64,000 bases of DNA from Phycisphaerae bacterium (GTDB lineage Bacteria; Planctomycetota; Phycisphaerae; SM23-33). Shown in pieces: positions 57,312 to 60,702 of this stretch. Made by a program: the position numbers and the translations under genes. The stretch is from NCBI GenBank assembly GCA_011050235.1, contig DRGC01000049.1, forward strand, positions 1 through 64,000, written 5' to 3'. Each line of letters begins with the position of its first letter. Positions within the stretch are counted from its first letter, which is position 1. Below the pieces are notes generated by a model. That model saw only the letters and a program-made list of their open reading frames with translations. It ran no database searches and was not told the DNA's origin.

Positions 57312-57394
57312 AGCTAGAGCCTAGCGTCATAAGCGTTGGCGGGCAAGCGGGCGGCCCAATCCCCCTTGCTCAGGCCGCGCAGGCCGCGAGGACC

Positions 57395-57422
57395 TTGTAA
57401 TTCACTGGAATCTTGATAGAAT
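57395..57422 (+). promoter_or_regulatory. Candidate promoter of first dockerin gene
   Basis: TTGTAA (57395-57400) and TAGAAT (57417-57422) are spaced by 16 bp and sit upstream of the gene. The equivalent place in the duplicated unit has TATAAT (59006-59011) before the same ggagagccaccgta-like block, supporting a conserved -10. The match to consensus is only fair. Confidence 0.35.
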
Positions 57423-57546
57423 GATCAAGGAGCCACCGTAGCTGGACTTTCGGGGGGGGGAGGCAGTGGCGATCTCTTGAGCGGATCATAATCGAGGCGT
57501 CTTATCCTGGATAATGGAGCCGCGCGCTCCCCACAACAGAAAGAGA

Positions 57547-58824
57547 ATGAACGTGAGAACATTTGCGATCGCGTTGATGGCAGTGACGATGGTCTTCGCT
57601 GCGACAGCACAGGCGTATGCCCCCAGTTCGGCGTCCGGCAAGTATGGCATATCCACGCAGGTCTCGGCCAAGTGGCTGGGCGACGGTCAGTGGGAATACG
57701 CCTACGACATCTTCGGCGAAGGTTCCGCAAACCTCTGGTACGACTACCTCATAATGAAGTTCGAGTTCGGTGACGGCGGCGCGTCCACGGACCACATCCT
57801 GAACCTGTACGATCCCGGCGCGGGCCCCGAGCTGCGCGAATTCTGGACCGTCAACGGTATGATCGGCAACAGAGGCGGCCACTGGTTTTGGGGTGGGGTA
57901 GAAACCGGCGTGCAGGCGTCCTACGGCGATTTGGCCACGAATACATGGATCACAAACCCAACGTCTGGCCAGGCCAGCGGCCAGAGGTGGCTCCTCGATC
58001 CGGTCTATGCCGCCGCCGAAGGGATGGCCAACCCGTTCCACGACCCCCTCGATTACGGGCGATGGGCCGGCAACGATTACTACACCGGCCAGGGCGATAG
58101 CGCCTTCGGGCTCATCGGCGGTCGGGCCGGTGAGTATGACAGCGACGGCATCGCCGACGACATCTTCTACGACATGACTTGGTTCCTGGGCGGCCACATC
58201 TACAACGCCACCGGGCCGCAGCTCATGGCCACCATCCGCGTAGTCAGCGACCTGGGCCCCTACGGCGCCATGCAGTTCCAGTACTACGGCTCCGGGTCGC
58301 AGCGCGTCGGCCCGGTGATGGCCCCCGGCGTGACCCCCGACGGGCTGGGCGACTTCGATACCGACGGCGACGTCGACGCCGACGACATCGACATCCTCTG
58401 CGCCAACATGGGCGGTGACCCGGCCACCTACGACCTCGACGGCGACGGCGACGTTGATATAGACGACATGATCGTCCTGATCGAAACGCTGGCTGAATGG
58501 GACAACGGCGTGACGAGCGGCGTGGGCACGAAGCGAGGCGATTTCAACCTCGACGGGGTCGTCGACGGCATCGACTTGGCGCTGATGAAGACCGCCTTCG
58601 GCGAGCCGGACATGGGGTATGCCGACGCCAACGCCAACTGCGACGCTTTCGTCGACGGCACGGACCTGGCGATCCTGAAGACCAACTTCGGCTTCATCGC
58701 CCCCACAGGCGGCTCGGCTGGGCTCGCCACAGGCGGTGCCGTTCCCGAGCCGATGACGCTTCTCGTCATGGCGGCCGCAGGCCTTCCTGTATTGCTGAAG
58801 CGTAAGCGGAAGTCCCAAGCGTGA
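57547..58824 (+). CDS. PEP-CTERM protein with dockerin-like repeats, copy 1
   Basis: A 425-residue exported protein. Signal peptide (about residues 1-22, cut after AQA), a beta-rich domain with WEYAYDIFGEGS and AAEGMANPFHDP, then two dockerin-type Ca2+ modules, each made of a pair of calcium loops: DTDGDVDADDIDIL and DGDGDVDIDDMIVL; DFNLDGVVDGIDLAL and NANCDAFVDGTDLAIL (about 275-385). The C-terminus has VPEPMTLLVM, a hydrophobic stretch and KRKRKS, the PEP-CTERM anchor. Its function may be as a scaffold or structural surface protein. The start ATG follows agaaaga. A paralogue begins 362 bp downstream. Confidence 0.85.
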   Translation: MNVRTFAIALMAVTMVFAATAQAYAPSSASGKYGISTQVSAKWLGDGQWEYAYDIFGEGSANLWYDYLIMKFEFGDGGASTDHILNLYDPGAGPELREFWTVNGMIGNRGGHWFWGGVETGVQASYGDLATNTWITNPTSGQASGQRWLLDPVYAAAEGMANPFHDPLDYGRWAGNDYYTGQGDSAFGLIGGRAGEYDSDGIADDIFYDMTWFLGGHIYNATGPQLMATIRVVSDLGPYGAMQFQYYGSGSQRVGPVMAPGVTPDGLGDFDTDGDVDADDIDILCANMGGDPATYDLDGDGDVDIDDMIVLIETLAEWDNGVTSGVGTKRGDFNLDGVVDGIDLALMKTAFGEPDMGYADANANCDAFVDGTDLAILKTNFGFIAPTGGSAGLATGGAVPEPMTLLVMAAAGLPVLLKRKRKSQA

Positions 58825-59186
58825 CTCGGGGCTATCACTGGCCTGGTCCTGCTCCGGCGACGGCGGTCGTAGATCCGCCGGGGCGGGAAGTAGACGCGCC
58901 CTTTCATCTCAGCATCAACGCGCCGGGCGACCCAACTCCCCTTGCTTGGCCCGGAAGGGACCTACAAATTTCTGGAATCAAGAGAGAATTATCCAAGATG
59001 GCCTGTATAATCATTTACGGAGAGCCACCGTAACCGGTAACCGGTTTTTTGGGGGGAGGCAGTGGCGATCTCTTGAGCATGTCATAATCGAGGCGTTTTG
59101 TGGAAACGCCATAACTTCAGCCGTGTTAGCGTCTTATCTTGGATCATGGCGCCGCGCACGGTCCCCATTTCAGAAGGAGAATAAGC
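58825..59186. other. Duplicated spacer between the two dockerin genes
   Basis: A 362-bp region that repeats the upstream flank of the first dockerin gene: the ggcgacccaactccccttgc-like block, the ccaccgta block and an identical 22-bp stretch at 59057-59078 that also occurs at 57461-57482. It also contains the 58-bp tail repeat and a candidate -10 TATAAT (59006-59011). It shows that the duplication included the promoter region. Confidence 0.75.
58872..58929 (+). repeat. 58-bp tail repeat, copy 1
   Basis: Starts gatccgccggggcgggaagt, then about 35 more bases ending cgggcg. It follows the first dockerin gene. The equivalent at 60495-60552 follows the second gene and differs at only a few positions. 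Confidence 0.85.
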
Positions 59187-60482
59187 ATGAGAACACTTGC
59201 GACTGTATTGATGGCAGTGACGATGGTGTTCGCTGCGACGGCGCAGGCCGTCCCCGACTGGGGGGACGGCGGCTATGGCATGTCGTGGTCGGTGACGTAC
59301 CAGCAGTTGGGCGACGGCACGTGGGAGTACGGCTACGACCTCTACGCCGAAGGTAGCGTCACCTACTATGATTACCTCGCGTTGAAGTTTGATTTCATCG
59401 GGACCGGCACGGTCACGGACCACGTACTGAACATGTACGATCCCGGCGGGGGGCCCGCCGAGCTTCGCGAGTTCTGGACCGTCAACGGTATCATCGGCAA
59501 CAACGGCGGTCATTGGTACTGGGGTGGTTCGCAAACCGGCGTGCAGGCGTCCTATGGCGATTTGGCCACAGATACATGGGACACCAACCCAACGCAGGCC
59601 CAGGGCAACGCGGAGAGATGGCTTATCGATGCGGTCTATGCCGCCGCCGAAGGGATAGCCAACCCGTTCCACGACCCCTCGGATTACGCCCGGTGGGCGG
59701 GCAACGGCAGCACGCAGGGCGACGCGGCCTACGGTCTGTATGCCGGGATGCAGGGCGACGAGTGGACCGCGGGGGGATCCTATTACACCCCGCTCGACAC
59801 CCACCTGGCGTTCGACATGACCTGGTTCGTCGGCGGCCACATGTACAACGGCAGCTACGGCCCGGAACTGATGGCGACGATTCGCATCGTCAGCGACCTC
59901 GGCCCGTACGGTTCGGTGACCGCCCAGTCCTATGCCTCCGGCACGTTTTGGTTTGACCCAATCGTGGGCCCCGGCTTGTCCCCCGCCGATTTCGACCTCG
60001 ACGGCGATGTTGACGCCGATGACATTGCCATCCTCTGCGCCAACATGGGCGGCGACGTGGGCACCTATGATCTGGACGACAGCGGCACGGTCGATGAAGA
60101 CGACATGATCTACATGATCGAGTTCATGGTCGAGTTGCAGGACGGCTCCGGCCGGGTCGGCACGAAGCGAGGCGACTTCAATCTGGATGGTCTCATCGAC
60201 GGCACGGACCTGGCGCTGATGAAGACCGGCTTCGGCCAGCCGCTCATGGACTATGCCGACGGCAACGCCAACTGCGACGCCTTCGTCGACGGCACGGACC
60301 TGGCGATCTTGAAGACGAACTTCGGCTTCATCGCCACCACAGGCGGTGTCCCCGAACCGATGACCATCGGTCTGTTATCACTGGCCGCGCCGGCCCTCTT
60401 GAGACGACGTCGTAGATCCGCCGTGGTGGATCGAAGATCCGCCGTGGCGGAAAGTCGTAGACGCGCCGGGGTGGGCCGTTAG
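59187..60482 (+). CDS. PEP-CTERM protein with dockerin-like repeats, copy 2
   Basis: A 431-residue paralogue of the preceding gene with the same order: signal peptide (1-22), beta-rich domain, four Ca2+-loop motifs (DLDGDVDADDIAIL; DDSGTVDEDDMIYM; NLDGLIDGTDLALM; NANCDAFVDGTDLAIL), and VPEPMTIGLLSLAAP before an arginine run. After the normal PEP-CTERM end, about 23 extra residues (RRSAVVDRRSAVAESRRR...) are encoded by gatccgccgtgg-type repeats, as if the original stop was lost. aaggag precedes the ATG. Together with copy 1 it is a tandem duplication. Confidence 0.85.
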   Translation: MRTLATVLMAVTMVFAATAQAVPDWGDGGYGMSWSVTYQQLGDGTWEYGYDLYAEGSVTYYDYLALKFDFIGTGTVTDHVLNMYDPGGGPAELREFWTVNGIIGNNGGHWYWGGSQTGVQASYGDLATDTWDTNPTQAQGNAERWLIDAVYAAAEGIANPFHDPSDYARWAGNGSTQGDAAYGLYAGMQGDEWTAGGSYYTPLDTHLAFDMTWFVGGHMYNGSYGPELMATIRIVSDLGPYGSVTAQSYASGTFWFDPIVGPGLSPADFDLDGDVDADDIAILCANMGGDVGTYDLDDSGTVDEDDMIYMIEFMVELQDGSGRVGTKRGDFNLDGLIDGTDLALMKTGFGQPLMDYADGNANCDAFVDGTDLAILKTNFGFIATTGGVPEPMTIGLLSLAAPALLRRRRRSAVVDRRSAVAESRRRAGVGR

Positions 60483-60494
60483 GCGGAGACGCTT

Positions 60495-60552
60495 GATCCG
60501 CCGGGGCGGGAAGTAGACGCACCGCTTCATCTCAGCATCAACGTAGCGGGCG
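60495..60552 (+). repeat. 58-bp tail repeat, copy 2
   Basis: Nearly the same sequence as 58872-58929, 13 bp after the stop of the second dockerin gene. Upstream, 60412-60475 already has several gatccgccg and gtagacgcgcc segments, read as coding sequence in the end of that gene. Confidence 0.85.
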
Positions 60553-60702
60553 GCCCCAACGGGGCCGCCCGCTTTCAATAGCAGCACGGCAACAGCTTCA
60601 CCACAAAGATCACGCCGAAGCTTCCGGCTTCGCTGCAGCTACGCTGGACGGGTCGCAGGACAGGTTTGACATTCGGCGCCGGATGCGTCAGCATCTTCGG
60701 CC

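Follow-up and report, generated by a model that had tools for sequence, protein, structure and literature searches.

The duplicated gene pair

We examined two neighbouring genes, referred to below as gene 1 and gene 2, in the first 64 kb (the window) of contig C49 (159.5 kb) from the genome assembly of a Phycisphaerae bacterium (4.01 Mb, 98 contigs, 95.5% complete). Their products are 66% identical and share the same layout: a hydrophobic start (MNVRTFAIALMAVTMVFAATAQA in gene 1 and MRTLATVLMAVTMVFAATAQA in gene 2) that is signal-peptide-like by eye only, an uncharacterised N-terminal domain (N-domain), two tandem dockerins and a PEP-CTERM sorting tail. The coding features, all on the forward (+) strand, are as follows.

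57547..58824 (+): gene 1, 425 amino acids; signal-peptide-like start, uncharacterised N-domain, double dockerin, PEP-CTERM
58351..58743 (+): gene 1's double-dockerin cassette, as far as the PEP motif (PF00404, cassette alignment)
58741..58812 (+): PEP-CTERM tail of gene 1 (TIGR02595, residues 399-422)
59187..60482 (+): gene 2, 431 amino acids; layout as gene 1, plus an Arg-rich extension that follows the tail
59250..59975 (+): N-domain of gene 2, signal-peptide-like stretch excluded (Pfam search, class-genome search)
59988..60350 (+): gene 2's double-dockerin cassette, as far as the PEP motif, with four calcium-loop/helix units
60213..60338 (+): part of the last dockerin of gene 2 most alike at synonymous sites (0.81-0.95 across unrelated genes)
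60348..60416 (+): PEP-CTERM tail of gene 2 (TIGR02595, residues 388-410)
60417..60482 (+): Arg-rich extension and stop codon of gene 2, containing copies of a dispersed element

The dockerin profile PF00404 matched two stretches in each protein, with 38.2 bits for gene 1 and 22.9 bits for gene 2 (exactly at the cut-off of 22.9), and the PEP-CTERM profile TIGR02595 scored 16.2 bits in gene 1 (barely over the cut-off of 16) and 20.1 bits in gene 2. The last dockerin of gene 2 also matches solved cellulosomal dockerins in a sequence search (2vn5, E 3.7e-8). A structure model of the double dockerin contains four loop-helix units (predicted local distance difference test, pLDDT, 70.9; predicted template modelling score 0.48), and its best PDB match was 2y3n_B (Foldseek E 3.2e-3, probability 1.00; none at E 0.001 or below), while the model of the whole gene 2 protein is of low confidence (pLDDT 28.5). 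The N-domain gave no Pfam match at E 0.01, and it was matched in only one of 248 genomes of the class, namely this one, in these two copies only. No match was found among plasmid records. An alternative in-frame ATG of gene 1 is possible upstream, at 57514, and gene 2 carries a 21-residue basic extension beyond its PEP-CTERM tail, which is unusual for exosortase substrates.

A first-pass annotation of this DNA had described upstream blocks, coding region and tail as repeated with a period of about 1.6 kb. A repeat search of the window bears this out, with direct repeats spaced by 1576-1643 bp from about 57340 to about 60560, so that the duplicated span comprises the upstream sequence, both coding regions and the tail repeat. 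The repeat families measure 260 nt (82% identity), 196 nt (88%) and 160 nt (75%); a 94-nt repeat (82%) spans both start codons and a 49-nt repeat (92%) sits upstream of both genes. The 22-bp stretch reported as identical (57461-57482 and 59057-59078) is indeed exact, and exactness extends to 28 bp (57455-57482 and 59051-59078); when 3 mismatches are allowed, a 27-bp piece of this stretch occurs nowhere in the window but at these two places, against 0 expected.

57340..58933 (+): tandem unit 1, made up of upstream region, gene 1 and tail repeat (from the repeat families; ends approximate)
57455..57503 (+): first copy of the upstream repeat block (49 nt at 92%, with full identity over the first 28 nt); a G9 run at 57452-57460 precedes it
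58872..58933 (+): tail repeat, copy 1, holding GATCCGCCGGGGCGG of the dispersed element
58915..60560 (+): tandem unit 2, from the repeats; ends approximate, the overlap with unit 1 falling on the junction motif
59051..59099 (+): second copy of the upstream repeat block, with a G6 run at the corresponding place
60495..60556 (+): tail repeat, copy 2, from the repeat search

A short GCGGGCGRCCCAA-like motif marks each of the unit boundaries (about 57346, 58922 and 60546; the first two from the repeat listing, the third read from the sequence), which is the layout expected for a tandem duplication. We read genes 1 and 2 as copies, made by an old tandem duplication, of a gene for a lineage-specific and probably secreted protein.

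A cassette shared by unrelated carriers

The gene 2 protein has 55 matches in the assembly at E 0.001, fragments included, most of which span its C-terminal part only. Apart from the four weakest they were extracted as 51 frames. In 42 of these a PEP motif stands close to the end; the others are seven giant proteins lacking the motif, one frame cut by a contig end and one fragment. After 11 of the 42 had been dropped as cut off, single-dockerin or diverged, 31 complete cassettes remained, and these fall into 19 N-domain groups. Pfam matches on the passengers include FGE-sulfatase, Peptidase_S8 with P-domain, Pro_isomerase (cyclophilin), FG-GAP_2 and Trypsin, the passengers scanned being mostly other than glycoside hydrolases. 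Since the cassette is common to many unrelated carriers, the window pair is a single duplicated passenger among them. The largest N-domain group, of FGE-sulfatase type, accounts for six of the 31 cassettes plus a cut-off copy at C82; carriers of this type (L003, L005, L008, L009, L043, L018 and L026) lie on C60, C34, C6 and C82, four of them on C60.

The seven giant proteins, of about 1,400 to more than 3,300 amino acids, match the same cassette profile, and the dockerin module is therefore not bound to exosortase sorting. Several of them (the set being L043, L044, L045, L047, L042, L049 and L051) start with a LEPRLLL-like sequence and end in a different, non-PEP tail, which is possibly a second surface-anchoring route; similar tails also occur in the relatives G007, G107 and G205. 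In an order-level relative (G019; L267-L286) many proteins stop right behind a mirrored dockerin (…NYHG and stop) without any PEP tail. A frame of 24,536 amino acids on C51 of the own genome (G000:C51, L023) was rejected, its upstream part being masked N read as open, and masking may likewise explain a dockerin match inside an open frame of 14,875 amino acids in another genome (G190:C142:140187-140342). For the carriers with a PEP tail the assembly encodes a single exosortase, on C43 (PF09721, E 3.7e-55; TIGR02602, 135.6 bits against a cut-off of 105.55), whose gene adjoins a polysaccharide-export-like gene.

The likeness of the cassettes extends to synonymous sites. We scored agreement only at codons for the same amino acid, with an expectation derived from codon usage, in the 22 cassettes ranking most similar to gene 2 among the 31, a choice that raises their agreement. 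Across N-domain groups it was 0.669 in the first dockerin (expected 0.506), 0.598 in the linker (0.403), 0.770 in the first part of the last dockerin (0.479), 0.898 in the last calcium loop (0.501) and 0.462 in the PEP tail (0.352). Over all 31 cassettes the last loop still scored 0.789, and in a sliding window agreement peaked at 0.95 over gene 2 residues 349-360, with 0.52 at residues 385-396. Agreement within N-domain groups exceeded that between groups by at most 0.06 in every segment, and the DNA identity of the 22 cassettes was likewise nearly equal within and between groups (0.880 and 0.850 in the last loop).

The nearest copy of a cassette switches from segment to segment. Gene 2 comes closest to gene 1 over the first dockerin (0.764), to C83_37242 over the opening half of the last dockerin (0.974), and to C61_7509 and C60_19481 beyond that half (0.938). 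Exact tracts of at least 60 nt link 41 of 465 gene pairs, 35 of them across N-domain groups; for gene 2 the partners in such tracts are C60_19481 (FGE-sulfatase type) and C49_120793. A recombination test of the pairwise homoplasy index (PHI) type gave z -8.07. This test is anti-conservative here, and therefore only its comparison with 40 recombination-free simulations was used (mean z -2.67, lowest -4.82). Synonymous agreement, exact tracts and the recombination test together point to ectopic gene conversion that affects some of the copies and has its centre in the last dockerin. A synonymous excess is also present in the relatives G001, G005 and G015, and a smaller one in G016.

Dockerin dialects and a possible partner

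The own-genome cassette profile found matches at 1e-10 in 22 of 31 genomes (our own and 30 relatives, with no member of its genus among the relatives listed). Of 19 related loci from named genomes 15 carry planctomycete names, chiefly of Phycisphaerae or Phycisphaerales, which makes a place in or near that class likely for our genome. The helix words of the dockerins were compared at the best-scoring places of this profile in G001, G004, G005, G015 and G016, and at PF00404 matches in G007, G019 (the best 22 of 69), G107 and G205, the entries of G196, G215 and G168 being those among the matches listed; four entries of G004 were skipped, as were seven of the 80 in the comparison of halves, with all three of G010. 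The words are VDGTDLALMKT and VDGTDLAILKT in our genome (G000), VDGSDLALMGG twice in G004, VGPEDFGILKD and IGPEDFGLLKD in G005, F.DY..LEANFG twice in both G007 and G015, VDGLDYNVWSLHY and ..NY in G016, and VDGVDFLIWQ twice in G019.

Over 15-residue helix segments the two halves of one protein agree at 0.67-0.78 in seven of ten genomes, whereas the same half compared between genomes agrees at 0.26-0.39. Consensus halves within genomes match at 0.70, against 0.393 when permuted, and none of 20000 permutations was as high. Loop-helix positions 10 and 17 are among those that vary from genome to genome while staying almost constant inside most genomes; in a cellulosomal dockerin these two are predicted recognition positions (PMC5590126; here and below, papers with a PMC number are drawn on in excerpt).

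The dialect also persists where synonymous sites are close to saturation. In G196, a genome in a single contig, all eight sampled dockerins carry VDLLDLSILASNF in both halves, in proteins without N-domain similarity, and synonymous agreement is little above expectation (0.623 against 0.566); G004 keeps its dialect at 0.493 against 0.470 expected. With synonymous sites near expectation and the dialect kept, selection on the protein seems to hold it, at least in G196.

The dockerin is familiar as one partner in a lock-and-key pair. The first-pass annotation had no cohesin in view, and profile searches of the whole assembly recognised none: PF00963 did not match, and a second profile, built from ten cohesins of class relatives, gave a best E of 0.351 over 32 of its 124 positions. 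Dockerins were found in 211 of 248 class genomes and cohesins in 40, both together in 39. The same annotation had suggested a calcium-dependent surface assembly, which a missing cohesin-like partner combined with silent genes would speak against; on the cohesin side both profiles were negative. Since both miss, a cohesin-based assembly finds no support here. The products of genes 1 and 2 as calcium-binding surface proteins are well supported by the sequence, because dockerins, sorting tail and exosortase are all present. An assembly through some other partner is more likely than it would be from the pair alone, because the module is genome-wide and has a dialect.

We give an even chance to the reading that the cassette is a shared display and docking module whose partner is not a Pfam-type cohesin and which is kept alike by both conversion and selection. 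The carriers would be exported by the Sec route and their PEP tails processed at the surface by the single exosortase, which would leave a calcium-folded dockerin pair displayed on dozens of different enzymes and surface proteins. By its helix face the pair may bind one common partner, other than a Pfam-type cohesin, which would gather the carriers into one surface or matrix assembly. The likeness of the cassettes would be maintained partly by gene conversion among paralogues, strongest over the last dockerin, and also by selection for the genome's own recognition dialect. Calcium binding, surface display and the common partner are what we infer. More tentatively, the cohesin-free dockerin may be a surface-recognition code, with a mirrored dialect of each lineage's own, a novel receptor or dockerin-dockerin pairing, and changes spread by conversion of the last dockerin.

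Several observations weigh against the docking module as set out here. The binding partner is hypothetical, none having been found in the genome searches. The ranking of cassettes, in which 45 of 50 own matches score above the best match of any relative, is biased toward own copies by a profile built from the own genome. The nine more diverged cassettes are little homogenised (last loop 0.566 against 0.480 expected), and gene 1 has no exact 60-nt tract in common with any other cassette gene. Trees place genes 1 and 2 apart in the last dockerin, where the approximately unbiased (AU) test did not reject a sister placement (p 0.086; 0.28 in the first dockerin), so that conversion of the window pair itself is tentative. 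The two dockerin halves are unlike in three of the ten genomes (G001, G107 and G205; agreement 0.32-0.38). Mirrored halves as a mark of cohesin-free genomes were rejected by a test set beforehand on one dockerin each from 10 cohesin and 10 cohesin-free genomes of the class: agreement was 0.48 in the nine readable genomes with cohesins and 0.46 in the ten without (p 0.52), and strongly mirrored halves are not general across the class genomes tested. The idea behind this test was post hoc, the cohesin genomes G001, G107 and, by eye, G168 having unlike halves, with G205 (without cohesin) as the exception.

The main rival of the docking module, which we consider rather unlikely, is that the dockerins are calcium-stabilised stalks or folding modules without a specific partner, and that the dialects are a by-product of cassette spread and conversion. 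Such stalks would fit the failure of both profiles to recognise a cohesin, the occurrence of dockerins without cohesins across the class, and the conversion signal in our genome with its synonymous counterparts in four relatives. They would not readily account for G196 and G004, which keep the protein dialect with synonymous sites near or at expectation, nor for the joint change of both dockerin halves between genomes, and the positions that are constant within genomes and vary between them include 10 and 17.

It is improbable, in our judgement, that an ordinary cohesin is present and either too diverged for the profiles or hidden in the small part of the genome that the assembly lacks or in its masked stretches. 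Cohesins missed by sequence profiles and revealed only by AlphaFold2 have been reported (PMC11557425), and the family relatives G001, G048 and G107 have PF00963 matches; here, the class-specific profile misses the genome as well as PF00963 does, and of the 172 genomes with dockerins and without a PF00963 match 11 are in single contigs, as against two single-contig genomes with both. Assembly chimeras as the source of the mosaic cassettes are very improbable: contigs C60, C64, C71 and C82 do end inside or beside a cassette, so repeats broke the assembly, but genuine near-identical copies themselves do this, the two genes of the window are 57-60 kb from the start of a contig of 159.5 kb, and the single-contig G196 shows the dialect pattern too, albeit without the conversion signal.

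The helix dialect is specific to the genome even though 172 of the 211 dockerin-bearing class genomes have no recognised cohesin, which makes the question of what orphan dockerins bind experimentally addressable. The dialect points to residues for swapping, and the shared cassette offers a single bait for each genome. A new receptor family, if there is one, would give surface enzymes a second docking system that depends on calcium, and such a system would be of use in protein assembly. The pattern at synonymous sites suggests that PEP-CTERM sets can spread by the exchange of pieces between existing genes, beyond duplication alone.

Known systems and minor features of the locus

The PEP-CTERM/exosortase system was described as a module whose carriers are otherwise unrelated and whose copies resemble each other more inside a species than across species, and paralogous expansion within lineages was already proposed for it (Haft et al. 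2006, PMC1569441). Our cassette proteins share with it the signal-peptide-like start, the PEP motif, hydrophobic stretch and basic end, the exosortase and the unrelated N-domains. They differ in that about 120 residues of double dockerin before the tail are also shared, and in that synonymous homogenisation is strongest in the last dockerin, not in the PEP tail.

Cellulosomal type I dockerins (2vn5/2vn6, 2y3n) resemble ours in paired calcium-loop/helix units, which in ours are predicted, in sequence, in the model match to 2y3n_B and, probably, in having species-specific recognition residues. Unlike them, our dockerins stand in tandem ahead of an exosortase tail, and neither PF00963 nor the class cohesin profile recognised a cellulosome-type, cohesin-bearing scaffoldin in the genome. 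The double dockerin Clo1313_0689 of C. thermocellum (8x39) was second in the fold search, though as a weak match (E 0.074, root-mean-square deviation 10.1); it likewise consists of two dockerins in a row, and a protease is named in one of its PDB molecule names, but it is cellulosomal and occurs with cohesins.

The planctosome is a cohesin-based proposal for genomes having both cohesins and dockerins (PMC6461901), in which planctomycete cohesin/dockerin proteins act outside cellulose degradation, with peptidases, much as seen here. Its cohesin-bearing anchoring and adaptor proteins are not recognised in our genome by the two profiles, and the text of that paper has no mention of PEP-CTERM or exosortase. 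Within the partial coverage of the literature searched, PEP-CTERM and dockerin were not found together, nor was PEP-CTERM with gene conversion or dockerin with concerted evolution, and dockerin with gene conversion returned only one unrelated paper. Dockerins and sorting tail are thus ordinary; for their arrangement and evolutionary mode we found no description in that literature.

Upstream of the pair, the equivalent spot holds G9 in copy 1 (57452-57460) and G6 in copy 2 (59051-59056), about 90 and 130 bp before the starts. A variable tract length could influence expression; G runs of at least 7 are not unusual in the window (26 against 19.9 expected). A consensus promoter scan gave a single hit, at 57395-57422, which is within chance (1 found against 0.7 expected). 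Behind gene 2 lies one further feature, which is not among the hits of the consensus terminator scan.

60545..60573 (+): hairpin of 13 pairs, terminator-like (-20.4 kcal/mol, z -6.2, DNA parameters)

The tail repeat had been described as a 58-bp part of the duplicated cassette. It does recur, over 62 nt (58872-58933 and 60495-60556), as a similar rather than identical sequence (89%), and it is a dispersed element outside the dockerin/PEP-CTERM cassette. The GC-rich core of this element, GATCCGCCGNGGCGG, recurs in 22 exact copies in the assembly, in line with the proposal that further copies be looked for; 61 copies have at most one mismatch, compared with 7 for a reversed control. Seven of the 22 exact copies lie within 75 bp of a cassette match. 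The extension of gene 2 contains an exact copy (60436-60450) and a one-mismatch copy (60415-60429), translated as its Arg-rich end, and the element was seen in or behind other gene ends as well (besides 60417-60482, own-genome L055 and L043). A fragment at C55:16491 has an Arg-rich end similar to that of gene 2.

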